Source: Bryobacteraceae bacterium | GTDB lineage: Bacteria; Acidobacteriota; Terriglobia; Bryobacterales; Bryobacteraceae | Assembly: GCA_025055455.1 (NCBI GenBank) | Contig: JANWXD010000011.1 | Location: 1-64,000 of the forward strand | DNA length: 64,000 nucleotides | Reading direction: 5' to 3' | Shown here: positions 35,663 to 50,078 of the stretch, one piece after another | Position numbering within the stretch: the first letter of the stretch is position 1 | Layout of the letters: each line of letters begins with the position of its first letter | Made by a program: the position numbers and the translations under genes | Notes under the pieces: generated by a model | Told to the model about the DNA's origin: nothing | What the model saw: only the letters and a program-made list of their open reading frames with translations | Databases searched by the model: none

Positions 35663-37273
35663 CTACACGCCCCAGCAGTAGTCCTCCACGGCTTTCTCGA
35701 TGGTTTCGTCGACCTCCATCAGCCGCATGAGCTCCAGCCGGAGCGCGTCCACCATCGCCCGCCAGCTAGCTTCGATGACGTTGTCCGAAACGCCCACCGT
35801 GGCCCAACTGCGCCGGTGATCGGACCACTCGATGAGCACCCGCACGCGCGCCGCCGTGCCCTTCTTCGGCTCGAGGACCCGGACCTTGTAGTCCGTGAGC
35901 CGCACGTCGGCGAGGCTGGGGTACAGGCTGGACAGACACTGCCGCAAGCACAAGTCCAGGGCATGCACCGGGCCGTGGCCCGAGGCGGTGGCCGAATGGA
36001 TGCCGTCCTGCGTCTTGACGGTGACCGAAGCGGTGGTGCGAGAGTGCTTGCCCGCCAGCATCTTGGTGGTGACTTCGACGTTGATGACGTCGAAGAAGTG
36101 CAGCCCGGGATGCAGCGCCTCCCGGACGAGCAGCTCGAACGTGCCCTCCGCCGCCTCCAGCTCATAGCCGAGAAACTCCAGATGCTTGATCCGCTCGAGC
36201 AACTCTTTGCGGGCGCGCTCATCCAAGCGGTCCGCGATGCCGTGCTGCTTGAGTTTGTAGAGGATATTGCTGCGGCCGGATAGGTCGCTGAGCAGCACGC
36301 GCTGGCGGTTGCCCACGGCCTCGGGGGGCACATGTTCGTAGGTGGCCGGGTCTTTCAACACCGCGCTGACGTGCACGCCGCCCTTGTGAGCGAAGGCGCT
36401 CCGGCCCACGTAAGGCTGGTCGTTGCGCAGCGGAAGGTTCGCGAGCTCGGCGACGAAGCGCGCGACTGAGGTGAGGTTCGCCAGACGCTCGCGTCCGATC
36501 GTGGTGTGGCCCATCTTCAGCTCGAGGTTGGCGATGATGGAGCACAGGTTCGCGTTGCCGCACCGTTCGCCGTAGCCGTTGATGGTGCCCTGCACGTGCG
36601 TCGCGCCCAACTCCACCGCCGTCAGCGTGTTGGCCACCGCCAGGTCGGAATCGTTGTGCGTGTGGATGCCGAGCGGGCCGTCGAAGCGCTTCCGCACCTC
36701 GGCGAAAATCTCCCCCAGACGCCCCGGCAGCGTGCCTCCGTTGGTGTCGCACAGACAGAGCACGTCCGCTCCGGCTTCCTTGGCCGCCTCCAGGGTGCGC
36801 AGCGCGAAGGAGGGGTTCGACTTGTAGCCGTCGAAGAAATGCTCGGCGTCGTAGATGACCTCGCGCCCGTGCTCCTTCAGGTACCGCACCGTTTCCGAAA
36901 TCATGCGCAGATTCTCTTCTTCGGTCACACCGAGCGCCCGCTCGGTGTGCAAGTCCCAGCTCTTGCCGAAGATGGAGATGGCGGGGGTGCCGGCCTCGAG
37001 CAAGGCGCGCACGTTCGGATCGCGATCCACAGAATTGCGCGCGAAGCGCGTCGAGCCAAAGGCCGTGAGCTTGGCGTGTCGGAGGCGGAGCTCGCGGGCC
37101 CGTGCGAAAAATTCCTTGTCCCGCGGATTGGACCCCGGCCATCCGCCCTCGATGTAGTCAATGCCCAGTTCGTCCAGCTTCTGGGCGATCATGAGCTTAT
37201 CCTCGACGCTGAAGGAGATGGTTTCTCCTTGCGCGCCGTCCCTCAGGGTGGTGTCCAAGATGTAGATGCGCAT
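35663..37273 (-). CDS. cimA: (R)-citramalate synthase, CimA type
   Basis: A 536-residue enzyme of the isopropylmalate/homocitrate synthase family. The TIM barrel carries DTTLRDGAQGET near the N-terminus, the metal-binding HTHND and GYGERCGNA, and a helical linker. A C-terminal LeuA-type allosteric domain follows (about 390-520). Length and RDGAQGET (rather than the RDGEQ of LeuA) match CimA. It condenses pyruvate and acetyl-CoA to citramalate, the threonine-independent route to 2-oxobutyrate and isoleucine. It lies 12 bp after ilvC, so it is the last gene of the ilv operon. Confidence 0.9.
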   Translation of the reverse strand: MRIYILDTTLRDGAQGETISFSVEDKLMIAQKLDELGIDYIEGGWPGSNPRDKEFFARARELRLRHAKLTAFGSTRFARNSVDRDPNVRALLEAGTPAISIFGKSWDLHTERALGVTEEENLRMISETVRYLKEHGREVIYDAEHFFDGYKSNPSFALRTLEAAKEAGADVLCLCDTNGGTLPGRLGEIFAEVRKRFDGPLGIHTHNDSDLAVANTLTAVELGATHVQGTINGYGERCGNANLCSIIANLELKMGHTTIGRERLANLTSVARFVAELANLPLRNDQPYVGRSAFAHKGGVHVSAVLKDPATYEHVPPEAVGNRQRVLLSDLSGRSNILYKLKQHGIADRLDERARKELLERIKHLEFLGYELEAAEGTFELLVREALHPGLHFFDVINVEVTTKMLAGKHSRTTASVTVKTQDGIHSATASGHGPVHALDLCLRQCLSSLYPSLADVRLTDYKVRVLEPKKGTAARVRVLIEWSDHRRSWATVGVSDNVIEASWRAMVDALRLELMRLMEVDETIEKAVEDYCWGV

Positions 37274-37285
37274 CGTAGTGTTCGG

Positions 37286-38323
<1,038 letters not shown>

Positions 38324-38884
38324 TTCTCGCTCCTGGGGTTTGATCGGCGCCTGTTTCCCCGGGCGCCGGCACCGGCGGGGACAGGCGCGGCCGACGGGGC
38401 CGCAACGACAAGGCCACCACGCCGGAGCGCGCGATGTCGAACTCTCCGTAGCTGCGCATGATGCCGATGAATTCGTCCAGTTTCTCGGGGTCTCCGGTGG
38501 CCTCCAAAGCGAATCCCTCGACCGAGGAGTCAATCACCCGAGCGCCGAAGATCTCTGCCTCCTTCAGCACGGCCGTGCGCTTCTCCAAAGGGGCCCGGAC
38601 GCGCAGGAGCACCATCTCGCGCGTGACCGCGCGGTGGTCGTCGGTGACGTCCGTCGCCTGGAGCACGTTGATCAGCTTGTTCATCTGCTTGATCACGAGC
38701 GCCCGCAAGTTCGGATCCACGTCCACGACGATGGTCATGCGCGACAGCGTGGGATCGAGCGTCCGTGCCACGGTTAGGCTCTCGATATTGTAGCCGCGGG
38801 CGGTGAGCACGCCGGTGATCCGCATGAGGGCGCCGGGTTTGTTCTCGACCAGCAGCGAAATCACTTGCAGCATGGCTCGCTCCC

Positions 38885-40615
38885 TTATTTCGGCACCGGC
38901 ACGGGCTGGGGCGGGCCCAGCACCATTTCGTTGATGGCGCCTCCGGCGGGCACCATCGGGTAGACGTTCTCGTAGGGTGAAACCCGGATGTTGAGCAGGT
39001 AGGGCCCCGGTTCCTCGACCGCCTCCTCCAGCGCGCGCGCCAGCTCACCGGGCCGTTCTACGGTGCGCCCCTTGAAGCCGTACGCCGCCGCCAGCTTCTC
39101 GGCATCGGGGAAGCAGTCCAGCTCCACCGCACAGAGCCGGTTGTTGTAAAACAGCTCCTGCCACTGGCGCACCATACCCAGATAGCCATTGTTCACCACG
39201 ACGATCTTGATCGGCAGGCCGTAGCTGGCGATCGTGGACAGCTCCGGCACCGACATCTGAAAGCCGCCGTCGCCGAGCACGGCGAAAACCAGCTTGTCGG
39301 GGCGCGCCAACTGGGCGCCGATGGCGGCCGGAAGGCCGAACCCCATGGCACCTAAACCGCCCGAGCAGATCCAGTGCCGCGGTTCGCTGAAGCGGATGAA
39401 TTGCGCCGCCCACATCTGATGCTGCCCCACATCCGCGGTGACGATCGCCTTGCCGCCGGAAAGCCGGTCAATTTCCACCATGACGTGCTGGGGCTTGATT
39501 TCGCTGTCCGAGAACGCCGGGACTAGGGGATGCTCCTGCTGCCAGGCGCGGATCTGCCGCCACCAGGCGCGCCGCGCCGCCGCCTTGCGTTCTCCCAACT
39601 CCGGCTCGAGCTCCCGCAGCAAAGGATTCAACTTTTGCAGAACGCGCTTCACGTCGCCCACGATGGGCAGGTCGGCGGCCCGGTTCTTCCCGATCTCGGA
39701 GGGGTCGATGTCCACGTGGATCACCTTGGCGTGAGGGGCAAACGAGGACAGGCGCCCCGTGACGCGGTCATCGAAGCGGACGCCAAGAGCGATCAACAGA
39801 TCGGTCGAGTACATGCCCATGTTGGCCGCATAGCTGCCATGCATGCCGGGCATGCTGATGAAATTAGGATGGTCGCCGGGCAGCGCGCCCAAACCCATGA
39901 GCGTGCACACGGCCGGAGCGTCGATGATCTCCACCAGTTCCCGCAACTCGGCCGCAGCCCCCGCGGCCACAATCCCGCCGCCGGCGTACACCATGGGCCG
40001 CTCGGCCTCCCAAATCATTTGCGCCGCGCGGCGAATCTGCCCCGCATGGCCCTCGGTGTAGACTTTGTAGCCGGGCAGGTGGATCGAAGACACCGGATGG
40101 TAGTGGCCTTGGCCCTGAAAAACATCCTTTGGGATATCCACCAGCACCGGGCCTGGCCGGCCCGTCGAAGCCAGATAGAAGGCTTCGTGGATGATCTGAG
40201 GCAGCTCCTTCAAGTTCTTCACCAGGTAGTTGTGTTTGGTGCAAGAGCGGGTGATTCCGAAGGTATCGGCTTCCTGGAAGGCATCGCTGCCGATCAGCTT
40301 CGTCGACACCTGCCCCGTAATCGCCACGATCGGAATGGAGTCCATCAACGCGTCCACTAGTCCCGTGACTAGATTGGTGGCCCCGGGGCCGGAGGTAGCG
40401 CAGCAAACCCCGACTTTCCCCGTGGCCCGGGCGTAGCCCTCGGCAGCAAACGCCGCATTCTGCTCATGCCGTACGAGCACGTGCCGAATCGGGTGGTCGT
40501 ACATCGCATCGTAAAAAGGCAGCGTGACGCCGCCTGGATAGCCAAACAGGCATTCCACCCCCTCGCGCACCAAACACTCGAGCAACATTCGAGCGCCATT
40601 CATCAACACCGCCAT
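38885..40615 (-). CDS. ilvB: Acetolactate synthase large (catalytic) subunit
   Basis: A 576-residue thiamine diphosphate enzyme with the three standard domains: N-terminal PYR domain with the catalytic Glu in VRHEQNAAFAAEGYARATG, a central FAD-binding domain, and the C-terminal PP domain with GDGGFQMSVPELST and VVNNGYLGMVRQWQ. It condenses pyruvate with pyruvate or 2-oxobutyrate, the first step of branched-chain amino acid synthesis. A strong GGAGGTGAGG precedes the ATG at 40615. It is the first structural gene after the attenuator. Confidence 0.95.
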   Translation of the reverse strand: MAVLMNGARMLLECLVREGVECLFGYPGGVTLPFYDAMYDHPIRHVLVRHEQNAAFAAEGYARATGKVGVCCATSGPGATNLVTGLVDALMDSIPIVAITGQVSTKLIGSDAFQEADTFGITRSCTKHNYLVKNLKELPQIIHEAFYLASTGRPGPVLVDIPKDVFQGQGHYHPVSSIHLPGYKVYTEGHAGQIRRAAQMIWEAERPMVYAGGGIVAAGAAAELRELVEIIDAPAVCTLMGLGALPGDHPNFISMPGMHGSYAANMGMYSTDLLIALGVRFDDRVTGRLSSFAPHAKVIHVDIDPSEIGKNRAADLPIVGDVKRVLQKLNPLLRELEPELGERKAAARRAWWRQIRAWQQEHPLVPAFSDSEIKPQHVMVEIDRLSGGKAIVTADVGQHQMWAAQFIRFSEPRHWICSGGLGAMGFGLPAAIGAQLARPDKLVFAVLGDGGFQMSVPELSTIASYGLPIKIVVVNNGYLGMVRQWQELFYNNRLCAVELDCFPDAEKLAAAYGFKGRTVERPGELARALEEAVEEPGPYLLNIRVSPYENVYPMVPAGGAINEMVLGPPQPVPVPK

Positions 40616-40691: not shown

Positions 40692-40729
40692 AAAAAAGGC
40701 CACCGTCGGATCCGACCCCGCCGATGGCC
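40692..40729 (-). terminator. Rho-independent attenuator terminator upstream of ilvB
   Basis: On the minus-strand transcript GGCCAUCGGC pairs with GACGGUGGCC (eight consecutive pairs from the base, then one mismatch and more G-C pairs) and is followed at once by six U residues. It lies about 75 bp before the ilvB start and after the leader peptide, so it ends transcription before the structural genes. Its 5' arm also takes part in the alternative hairpin. Confidence 0.85.
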
Positions 40730-40776
40730 TCCCGAATTCCCGAACCATCGAGCGGGGTCAGACTACGGTGACCCCG
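40714..40776 (-). promoter_or_regulatory. Attenuator: pause hairpin and antiterminator of the ilv operon
   Basis: Read on the minus strand. Region 1 CGGGGTCA (40769-40776) pairs with region 2 TGACCCCG (40753-40760), an 8-bp pause hairpin that covers the leader stop codon. Region 2 extended, GACCCCGCTCGATGG (40745-40759), can instead pair with region 3, CCATCGGCGGGGTC (40714-40727): 14 pairs with one bulged base. Region 3 is also the 5' arm of the terminator, so 2:3 and 3:4 pairing exclude each other. This is the classic layout of amino-acid-operon attenuators. Confidence 0.85.
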
Positions 40777-40853
40777 ACAAGAATGATAATGAGTACGATT
40801 ACGGAAACAGGCCAGCCACCCCACAGAACCGCCAACCCAGCATGAAGTGTCAT
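40758..40853 (-). CDS. ilvL: ilv leader peptide (31 aa, branched-chain-rich)
   Basis: An ATG at 40853 opens a 31-codon frame that ends with TGA at 40758. Residues 18-26 are nine consecutive branched-chain residues (VIVLIIILV), followed by GVTVV; 17 of 31 residues are Val, Ile or Leu. The peptide sits 33-35 nt after the predicted transcription start, and its last codons form region 1 of the attenuator. A ribosome stalled on these codons when charged Val-, Ile- or Leu-tRNA is short would mask region 1, let 2:3 form and prevent termination. The ribosome binding site is weak. The alternative reading, a small membrane peptide, does not explain the hairpins. Confidence 0.85.
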   Translation of the reverse strand: MTLHAGLAVLWGGWPVSVIVLIIILVGVTVV

Positions 40854-40892
40854 TGCGCTGTGACTACTCGTGGCCGGCACGTTCAGAACGCT

Positions 40893-40921
40893 ATTGTATG
40901 TCAAAAGAACCAGAAATGCAA
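40893..40921 (-). promoter_or_regulatory. Sigma70-type promoter of the ilv operon
   Basis: Minus strand: TTGCAT (-35, 40916-40921), 17-bp spacer, TACAAT (-10, 40893-40898). The expected start of transcription is near 40886, which leaves about 33 nt before the leader-peptide ATG. Confidence 0.7.
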
Positions 40922-40975
40922 TAAGCGACATGCATAAGAAATTCTAATTGACACATTTGAGACGCCCCACTCGAG

Positions 40976-43525
40976 CTACGGCGAGCGGATCGGGATCAAG
41001 AACGGTGGGCTGAGGCGGTCCTCGATGCGAACGGTGACGGGGACCGAGTCACCTGGCTTGATGTCCCCGCTCAAAACGATCTCGACGAAGTGCACGGAGG
41101 GATCCGTGGTGGCGAGTCGCACACTCGTGGGCCGATGTGGCACCCCGGCGACGCTGACCGTGACAGCGTCAGGGGAAACCGTGGAGCCCGGTGCGGCAAG
41201 CGTGAATACCGCCAAGATGATGGCCTGACCGGGCACCGCCGGCTCCGCCGTGGTTACCGGAACGCCGTCTGGCTTCGTCACGGCGACGATCACTGGCGGT
41301 GGCAAATCGATCGGCACGACAAAGGGCGGTAGCAGAATCCCACCGATCCGAAGCCTGGCGACCGTCGGTCCCACCGGCAATCCTCCCGGAACCTCGAACA
41401 AGATTCCCTCCTCGGATACGCGGAGTACTCGAGCCGCCTGTTCGTTCAAACTCAAGCTGAGATCCTCGGGTCGCAGGTTCGCCGGAAAACCCGAGACCCG
41501 CAGAAGCGCCTGGCCCCCCGAGTAAATGCTGGGGAGCCCCGTCGCAGGGTTAGCCGGCGAGGGATCCGGTACAGGCACGCCCACCCGAGCCGGTTCGATC
41601 TGAAACCCGTTCACCTGGCGAGCGATTTCGAATCCGGTCACCGCGGTCGGCGAAACGGATCCGGGACGGGCCGAAGGAGAAATCCACACATTGGCCCAAA
41701 GCCGATTGGGGCTCAGCACCCAAGTCCTCCGAGCGACGACATCCGTACTGCCGAACCCCAACAACGTCTGGCCTTGAGAAAAGTTGGTGTTCTCCCCCTG
41801 GATTTCGACCATGGCTACGGAGCCACTTGGCAGGGAAGCAGGCGTAATGGATATGCTCGGTGGATCCGCCGGAGCGTAGGTGTACACAGGCGGGCTCGGA
41901 GCGTCCAGAAAAAGCGACGTCTGGCCGTCCGGATTCAGCGCGGTCACAATGGCCCGATGTCCCGGGGCGCCCTGGGGCGGTTGAACGAGAATGGTCCCTG
42001 CGTCTTTGTCGAAGGCGAGAATCGTGGCCGGCAGCCCGTCGAAAAGGATGCGAGTCTGCTCGGTGAAGCCGGAGCCGGCAAGCGACACGGCGGTGCGTCC
42101 CCGGTCAAGCACCAGCGGCGATACGGTTCGGATGGAAGGAGGCGGAGACGCCACTACATTCAATCCGGCGGGCAGCACGTAGAGCTCACTGTCTCGCGTG
42201 AAGATCAAGTGCCGCGGGCCAATACCCGAAAACGGAGTGAACTGAAAACTCACTTGAAGGAAGTCCGGAGCTGGTGGGTAGGGGCGAATGCCGTCCGGCA
42301 GCACGAACGCCGAGCCTCCCATCACCGAAGCCTGTAAGCCCGGAGCCACGCTGCCGCGAACTGTCAGTCCCTGGCCCGACGCCACCAGGAAGTTCCGCGG
42401 GCCGTTCAAGTTAAGGAAAGCGGGCTTGACCGCCACGTTGCCCGGAAAACTATAAGTGCTCACTCCATACAGCGTCAGGGGTCCGCGGGGAACCACCTGG
42501 AAGTCCAAACCCTCCCGCGTGCCTCCGGCCGTAACGTCAATGACGGCGGCCCGGAGCAGATCCCCCGTTCCGGGATAAAACTGCGCTTGAAACAGCGGGC
42601 CGGGAGGAAAGCGCCGCCCGTCTAGGCCCGTCGGGAGCACAATATCATCCGGGCCGAGCTCCGGTTGGAGTGCCGGCGGCAAAGGATGCACGTACAGGTA
42701 ATAGCGACCGGGCGGGATTCCGGCGATGTGGTAGTAGCCGTCCGGGTCGGTCAAGGCCGCCACAGAGGCCCCACCGGGGGACAGCGCCATGACCGAGGCC
42801 AGGTGCACGCCGACGCCGTTCATCGTCACGCGGCCGCGGATCGCTCCAAATCGCAAGGCAAATTCCGCGTTCGGGTACAGCGAGGAAATTCCAGCGATGT
42901 CGTCCTCCGCCAGAGGCTTGGCGCGGGTGGTGGCCCGCGTGATGTAGGTGGACATGACGCTGGAGCTCTGCGTGTGCTGCAACCCCAGGGCGTGGCCCAT
43001 CTCATGGACCATGGTGAGGAAGAAGGCATCGCTGTGACTGGGTCGGCTCGACAGGTCCTTCGGAAGCACCACTACAGAACGCAGAATCGGAACGAAGGCC
43101 CCTTCTCCCTCACCGGTCATCTCGGCCCGCACCGTGGGGCCGCCCAGAGCCACGAGCCCTGGGGGCAGTTCATCGAAAACCACTTCGATTCGAGGATGGT
43201 TGTGCGGCGTGCCCGGTTCGGAAAAACCGCCGAACGCTAGGCGCAGCTCGGAAGTCGGAACTTGGCTCCAGGTTTGTGCGGCCAGACGGAGCTGGCTGAG
43301 CAAGGAAGCCAGGCTGTCTCCGGGCGCCATTTGCTCCGGTCCCCGGCTGGACACGAAGAACTGCACGGTTCGGTTGGGCAGGGACCTGAGATCGAACCTT
43401 TCGGGGACCGGAGCAAATGGCCCCGTCGCGCTCCGGTAGTGCAGAAAGTGATAGTGACCGAAAACGGTCCCGGCGAGGACTGCCATGGCCGTAGCGAGAC
43501 GCAGGAGGGTTTTGCCGCCGCCCAT
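40976..43525 (-). CDS. Secreted matrixin-type metalloprotease with IPT/TIG-like domains
   Basis: An 849-residue exported protein: N-terminal signal (LLRLATAMAVLAGTVFG), then a metzincin catalytic domain (about 40-215). The Zn ligands are His174, His178 and His184 in HEMGHALGLQH, with Glu175 as base and the Met-turn at SVMSTY (Met191). A carboxypeptidase-regulatory-like domain (about 225-340) and several Ig-like IPT/TIG domains (for example ITPASLPSGSVAMVEIQGEN) follow. Matrixins cleave extracellular proteins; the tail probably binds a surface or substrate. No pro-peptide cysteine switch is seen. It starts 9 bp after the small secreted gene upstream. Confidence 0.88.
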   Translation of the reverse strand: MGGGKTLLRLATAMAVLAGTVFGHYHFLHYRSATGPFAPVPERFDLRSLPNRTVQFFVSSRGPEQMAPGDSLASLLSQLRLAAQTWSQVPTSELRLAFGGFSEPGTPHNHPRIEVVFDELPPGLVALGGPTVRAEMTGEGEGAFVPILRSVVVLPKDLSSRPSHSDAFFLTMVHEMGHALGLQHTQSSSVMSTYITRATTRAKPLAEDDIAGISSLYPNAEFALRFGAIRGRVTMNGVGVHLASVMALSPGGASVAALTDPDGYYHIAGIPPGRYYLYVHPLPPALQPELGPDDIVLPTGLDGRRFPPGPLFQAQFYPGTGDLLRAAVIDVTAGGTREGLDFQVVPRGPLTLYGVSTYSFPGNVAVKPAFLNLNGPRNFLVASGQGLTVRGSVAPGLQASVMGGSAFVLPDGIRPYPPAPDFLQVSFQFTPFSGIGPRHLIFTRDSELYVLPAGLNVVASPPPSIRTVSPLVLDRGRTAVSLAGSGFTEQTRILFDGLPATILAFDKDAGTILVQPPQGAPGHRAIVTALNPDGQTSLFLDAPSPPVYTYAPADPPSISITPASLPSGSVAMVEIQGENTNFSQGQTLLGFGSTDVVARRTWVLSPNRLWANVWISPSARPGSVSPTAVTGFEIARQVNGFQIEPARVGVPVPDPSPANPATGLPSIYSGGQALLRVSGFPANLRPEDLSLSLNEQAARVLRVSEEGILFEVPGGLPVGPTVARLRIGGILLPPFVVPIDLPPPVIVAVTKPDGVPVTTAEPAVPGQAIILAVFTLAAPGSTVSPDAVTVSVAGVPHRPTSVRLATTDPSVHFVEIVLSGDIKPGDSVPVTVRIEDRLSPPFLIPIRSP

Positions 43526-49966: not shown

Positions 49967-49991
49967 AAGAAGCGGTAAGTCCTTCCTCGTG

Positions 49992-50078
49992 CGGACGTGG
50001 CGGAATTGGCAGACGCGCTAGATTCAGGTTCTAGTGGGCGCAAGCCCGTGGAGGTTCAACTCCTCTCGTCCGCACCAC
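49992..50078 (+). tRNA. tRNA-Leu (anticodon CAG)
   Basis: An 87-nt tRNA with encoded CCA. The acceptor stem GCGGACG/CGTCCGC closes on ACCA. The anticodon stem CTAGA/TCTAG frames loop TTCAGGT with anticodon CAG at 50026-50028, which reads CUG. The long variable arm (GGGC...GCCC) is the class II feature expected for leucine. The T arm is GAGGTTCAACTCCTC. Confidence 0.95.

Follow-up and report, generated by a model that had tools for sequence, protein, structure and literature searches.

The attenuators of the E. coli trp and ilv operons consist of four RNA segments, which can form the alternative pairings 1:2, 2:3 and 3:4, and of regulatory codons in the leader. In Corynebacterium, the ilvBNC operon is preceded by a leader peptide of 15 codons rich in branched-chain amino acids (BCAA) (MTIIRLVVVTARRLP; IlvL, ilvB-II motif), the transcription start and the leader start codon are one nucleotide apart, and the RNA can fold into three alternative hairpins, in which terminator and antiterminator overlap, with a U-tract after the terminator (PMC11857589, PMC10272879). 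For ilvB1NC of Mycobacterium tuberculosis there is experimental support for a uORF with BCAA codons, for a terminator at the leader end and for masking of the antiterminator by a ribosome that has reached the stop codon (PMC13236596). Runs of Ile, Val and Leu codons upstream of ilvB and overlapping terminators are found in further actinobacterial leaders, and codon substitutions in the ilvB leader of S. coelicolor were without effect (PMC1262725). Finally, the attenuator RNA of trpL in the alphaproteobacterium Sinorhizobium meliloti begins at the leader ATG and is thus leaderless; it senses Trp, and its leader products act in trans (PMC7298713).

Here we analyzed a window of 64,000 nt, the whole stretch of DNA under study, which named database matches assign to the Bryobacterales (Acidobacteriota). 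We suggest, with a probability of about 0.92, that the region 40692-40921 on the minus strand is a ribosome-mediated transcription attenuator of the operon ilvB-ilvN-ilvC-cimA, which would sense charged Val, Ile and Leu tRNAs. Closest in layout is Corynebacterium ilvBNC, with which the locus shares the BCAA-rich leader before ilvB-ilvN-ilvC, the three alternative hairpins, the overlap of terminator and antiterminator and the U-tract. It differs in the phylum, in the additional cimA gene and in the leader, which in the family of the window mostly has about 25-45 codons and a different C-terminus. The elements listed above for M. tuberculosis are also shared, in another phylum and with another leader; here they are supported by computation and comparison only. 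The four segments with their three alternatives, among which 1:2 is the least certain, and the regulatory codons are as in E. coli trp and ilv, whereas segment 2 overlaps, or is contained in, the last codons of the leader and its stop, the leader mRNA is predicted to be nearly leaderless without an evident Shine-Dalgarno sequence, and a 1:4 pairing is conserved. The predicted near-leaderless start recalls Corynebacterium ilvBNC and S. meliloti trpL. By analogy, the S. coelicolor result is a warning that a similar layout should not be taken as proof of attenuation. In the open literature (subscription papers, including earlier attenuation surveys, were outside the search) we found no attenuator of this type described for Acidobacteriota, and this would tentatively be the first description. 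As far as could be searched, the mechanism is classical, and the lineage, the RNA family and the ilvB-specific promoter are new.

An earlier note on this DNA had proposed a promoter, a leader, a hairpin, a 2:3 pairing and a terminator with six T on the minus strand, and all of them were located in that order and at those positions. The features of the region and of the operon are as follows:

40933-40940, minus strand: AT-rich upstream block, TTCTTATG in the window and WWTTWATR in the family, at -19 to -12 relative to the -35 hexamer
40916-40921, minus strand: -35-like hexamer TTGCAT (within TTGCATTT, 40914-40921), family-conserved upstream of ilvB
40893-40898, minus strand: -10-like hexamer TACAAT, 17-nt spacer to the -35 hexamer, family-conserved
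40758-40880, minus strand: leader ORF from the likely GTG at 40880, 40 codons, VPATSSHSAMTLHAGLAVLWGGWPVSVIVLIIILVGVTVV followed by the stop, with homologues in the family
40776-40802, minus strand: nine regulatory codons GTA ATC GTA CTC ATT ATC ATT CTT GTC (VIVLIIILV)
40760-40758, minus strand: leader stop codon TGA
40765-40775, minus strand: segment 1, GGGGUCACCGU, partner of segment 2 (1:2) or segment 4 (1:4), from folding and covariation
40745-40760, minus strand: segment 2, UGACCCCGCUCGAUGG, starts at the leader stop codon, 5' strand of the antiterminator, from folding and family pairing
40714-40729, minus strand: segment 3, GGCCAUCGGCGGGGUC, 3' strand of the antiterminator and 5' strand of the terminator, from folding and covariation
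40698-40709, minus strand: segment 4, CCGACGGUGGCC, 3' strand of the terminator, from folding and covariation
40692-40697, minus strand: U6 tract completing the intrinsic terminator, where an attenuated transcript is predicted to end
38885-40615, minus strand: ilvB, acetolactate synthase large subunit (TIGR00118, 791.7 bits, cut-off 538)
38271-38873, minus strand: ilvN, acetolactate synthase small subunit (NF008864 and TIGR00119, both above cut-off)
37286-38338, minus strand: ilvC, ketol-acid reductoisomerase (NF004017 and TIGR00465, both above cut-off)
35663-37273, minus strand: cimA, citramalate synthase (TIGR00977, 726.7 bits, cut-off 450)

Since each of the four genes scores above its curated family cut-off, the leader run consists of codons for the operon's end products. 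The assignment of cimA by TIGR00977, together with the lineage, agrees with the proposal of a citramalate-type operon in an Acidobacterium. A search of the own genome revealed one true match to the attenuator; the region 5' of the best leuA match (L299) contained no leader of this kind, and at trpE the match began within the gene. The gene upstream of the attenuator (40976-43525, minus strand) encodes a large protein, which weakly matches a myxosortase-dependent metalloprotease family and a repeating domain of the anchor type.

Folding of the window sequence revealed the alternative structures. The 1:2 hairpin GGGGUCA/UGACCCC (40775-40754) has 7 bp and -11.3 kcal/mol, the 2:3 helix within 40760-40713 reaches -31.2 kcal/mol, with about 14 pairs between segments 2 and 3 as had been claimed for the antiterminator, and the terminator 3:4 (40729-40698) has -19.7 kcal/mol and is followed by six T (40697-40692). 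The 84-nt stretch 40692-40775 has a fold z of -6.2, and none of 200 shuffles was equally stable. In the minimum-energy fold of the free RNA, 2:3 is nested in 1:4. The leader reaches a density of nine Val, Ile or Leu codons in ten, which was attained by 0.02% of dinucleotide shuffles. A strict terminator pattern scan of the window found nothing, probably because of an internal mismatch and the loop limits of the scan.

To see how far the element extends, we turned to the relatives. Of 150 genomes sampled from the family of the window, 135 yielded an IlvB, and the locus set (n=112) comprises 110 upstream regions and two named contigs, including the window and one duplicate pair; the family loci were oriented by tblastn. 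By pattern or covariance model the element is present directly 5' of ilvB in 108 of the 112 loci, nearly all of the same family, 24 of them missed by the pattern and added by the model. A leader ORF rich in Val, Ile and Leu (at least 7/10) occurs in 69% of the loci, compared to 1.5% of dinucleotide shuffles and 1.8% on the opposite strand. What had been announced as a notable example in a probable Acidobacterium is a family-wide element rather than a single odd case, and a mechanism known chiefly from other phyla is the norm in this family. The remaining four loci (L003, L133, L144 and L163) have kept the promoter and contain no leader, antiterminator or terminator between it and ilvB; these are apparent secondary losses of the attenuator.

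The pairings were then compared in an alignment of 65 sequences, which had been selected by a pattern already demanding terminator-like arms. In this alignment 3:4 pairs in 95% of the cells and its compensatory changes exceed all shuffles, a covariation which is partly built in by the selection; segments 1 and 2 were free of this constraint. The 2:3 pairing (CCCCGCC:GGCGGGG) was found in 90.5% of the cells and is nearly invariant, so that a single base pair accounts for the larger part of its covariation. The 1:4 pairing (GGUCAUCG:CGAUGGCC) is present in 87.5% of the cells, with three doubly changed positions. In the family alignment 2:3, 3:4 and 1:4 exceed the shuffle and slide controls. Thus, the mutual exclusivity of 2:3 and 3:4 is supported both by the alternative folds and by covariation, and the two checks suggested earlier, folding of the region and a search of related ilvB upstream regions for BCAA-rich leaders and covarying hairpins, gave the expected result. 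The hairpin over the leader stop is less well supported: stable in the window, 1:2 pairs in 72% of the cells in the family, with weak covariation.

If these parts act together as proposed, RNA polymerase would start a few nucleotides 5' of the leader start codon, and a ribosome would load at once on the nearly leaderless RNA. When charged branched-chain tRNAs are scarce, it would stall in VIVLIIILV, the free segment 2 would pair with segment 3, with 1:4 closing around 2:3, no terminator would form and the operon would be transcribed. When they are plentiful, the ribosome would reach the stop codon at the edge of segment 2 and cover segments 1 and 2, so that 3:4 and the U-tract would form and transcription would terminate near 40692. 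The parts, their conservation and mutual exclusivity, the codon bias and the dependence of pairing on ribosome position were computed or compared; leader translation, co-transcriptional timing and the response to amino-acid supply we infer.

The dependence on ribosome position was modelled with a ribosome mask of 30 nt and a transcript cut just 3' of segment 3 in 90 sequences. With the A-site seven or more codons away from the stop, around 12 pairs of 2:3 are expected, compared to 0.1 with the A-site at the stop codon. For the window the corresponding drop, 11 to 0.2, occurs between codons -3 and -2, and the regulatory run (codons -14 to -6) lies within the antitermination zone. The equilibrium probability of the terminator in the window is about 0 over the positions of the run and 0.99 at the last three codons. 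In these models, the position of the ribosome decides between the folds. When whole leaders of relatives were folded at equilibrium, the terminator was favoured at most ribosome positions, and a clear switch appeared only with the transcript cut before segment 4; their switch would therefore have to be kinetic. Without a ribosome, the equilibrium fold of the window is the antiterminator, and thus, in contrast to E. coli trp, the operon may not be switched off when the leader is left untranslated; the actual outcome would depend on whether 1:2 forms first.

Codon usage in the run points in the same direction. At leader codons -16 to -8 in the family, Ile is encoded by ATT in 69% (22% in the ilvB genes), Val by GTA in 55% (5%) and Leu by CTT in 40% (7%). 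This preference for codons which the ilvB genes avoid is evidence, at the sequence level, that the run serves in sensing.

The leader end is also conserved, usually as V-I-V-x-G-P-A-stop or similar, with GPA in 48 and PA or PV in 74 of 90 leaders. A proline close to the end of the nascent chain can slow release. It is therefore conceivable that VIV-x-GPA-stop is a translation-arrest peptide, in which the nascent chain stalls the ribosome and RNA structure is secondary. However, the constraint is at the nucleotide level: the Ile codon at -6, inside segment 1, is ATC in 39/39 leaders, and the Pro codon at -2 is CCC in 72/74, whereas at -9 to -12 Ile is usually encoded by ATT. Further, the alternation of Ile and Thr at -6 accompanies changes in segment 4, and the final Ala codon follows segment 3, with GCT where this reads AGC and GCC where it reads GGC. 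The window itself has lost the GPA ending and kept the pairing. We consider an arrest peptide very unlikely and, given the codon freezing and the covariation with segments 3 and 4, rejected this reading of the ending. These observations suggest instead that the end block represents segments 1 and 2, that RNA rather than peptide constraint conserves it, and that the peptide ending is a by-product.

In most relatives segment 2 is encoded by the last leader codons (G-P-A-stop) and lies inside them, which corrects the earlier reading, and the window is a derived case. How the shift could have arisen can be read from the closest locus, L229 (G256:C36:5500-10500), whose IlvB is 88% identical to that of the window. 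It reads GTATCTGACCCCGCCTGA, ending in SDPA-stop, where the window reads GTAGTCTGACCCCGCTCGATGG; the compared leader ends are GTATCTGACCCC in L229 and GTAGTCTGACCCC in the window. Unless it is an assembly error, one extra base in the window brings a TGA forward; the former stop has disappeared, and segment 2 now forms about 14 pairs with segment 3. The L229 contig has been attributed to a genome from a different family of the class and has the same kind of attenuator, a similar end of the upstream gene and a different ilvN, which could reflect either horizontal transfer or mis-binning.

The promoter proposed earlier (TTGCAT-17-TACAAT) is present and conserved in the family, but a strict sigma-70 scan of the window detected no promoter, because TTGCAT matches TTGACA at only 3/6 positions. 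The motif TTGCATTT-N15-TAnnnT is conserved upstream of ilvB in the family, mostly with 17-nt spacing, and can be extended to WWTTWATR-N11-CTTGCATTT-N5-RCTTNT-N4-TANNCT (40893-40940, minus strand, in the window; loci L082-L191 in the family). The strongly conserved WWTTWATR block, 12-19 nt 5' of the -35 hexamer, could be an activator site or an UP element. TTGCATTT-N15-TANNNT has one match in the whole own genome, of its 38 matches across 61 genomes of the family about 29 lie at ilvB, and the examined loci from outside the family did not show the motif. It does not appear to be a general promoter, and a dedicated regulator or sigma factor is possible.

Such a promoter raises the alternative that control is exerted mainly at initiation, by a factor at the ilvB-specific promoter, and that leader and terminator do no more than lower expression by a fixed amount or yield a small RNA. 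The unusual conservation of the promoter region, its uniqueness to ilvB in the genome and its retention in the four relatives without attenuator are in line with this. A fixed terminator, however, would need neither conserved alternative pairings nor codon-biased runs, and this renders initiation control very improbable as the main mode. It could coexist with attenuation, as it does in E. coli trp.

The leader start is linked to this promoter. In 33 of 94 family leaders a start codon in the leader frame is located 6-7 nt past the -10 box, and in 83 of 94 it is located 2-19 nt past it, which predicts a leaderless or nearly leaderless mRNA; no clear Shine-Dalgarno sequence is found upstream. The counterpart in the window is the GTG at 40880, 12 nt past the -10 box. 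Of the proposed leader of 31 codons with nine Val, Ile and Leu codons, the run VIVLIIILV is present, but on account of the placement relative to the -10 box in relatives the start is more probably this GTG (40 codons) than the ATG at 40853. It is tempting to speculate, although we hold it to be somewhat less probable than its opposite, that the whole is a two-layer module used for ilvB only: a dedicated promoter, WWTTWATR-N11-CTTGCATTT-N15-TANNCT, with a putative regulator or sigma factor, and an almost leaderless mRNA which would synchronise ribosome and RNA polymerase from the first codon, with the antiterminator strand written in the last codons of the peptide and the stop.

Control by a small-molecule riboswitch or a T-box, with the ORF incidental, has precedents in ilvB genes under ppGpp riboswitches and amino-acid genes under T-boxes elsewhere (PMC10272879, PMC2494555), but it is even less probable than the other alternatives, since the conserved blocks in the family are promoter, leader end and terminator with no separate aptamer-like core, the codon bias of the run would be left unexplained, and Rfam scans detected no attenuator, T-box or riboswitch family in the window at the gathering threshold and no ilvB-associated, T-box or ppGpp riboswitch family in five relatives at relaxed E-values (to 5). 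The relaxed scan returned three sub-threshold matches, all to unrelated families. The sole Rfam match within the window is a tRNA gene (49991-50074, plus strand).

The attenuator can be read in detail over more than 100 genomes of one acidobacterial family, and related layouts exist in other families and classes. The relatives form a comparative set with intact attenuators, a shifted stop and lost attenuators, in which the importance of each part is testable and which bears on the question whether leaderless initiation couples ribosome and polymerase. Other families and classes of the phylum are mostly without such leaders. Outside the family, leaders were found in the same order (G279), in the class (G269, G275 and G219) and in other classes (G434, G418 and G322), and in several of them the stop codon itself lies within segment 2 (GGAUGAUGGCC with a GGCCAUCA-type segment 3). 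The leaders across the phylum could be due either to common descent or to convergence. Other families also gave weak matches to the model, with E-values of about 1e-4 to 0.01; these were discarded, those inspected being either strong terminators or chance hits at sites other than ilvB. In four loci of other classes (L279, L281, L282 and L285), leaders rich in Val, Ile and Leu precede ilvB, with the stop in or beside the antiterminator strand, and in G322 both of the two ilvB copies have a leader of their own.
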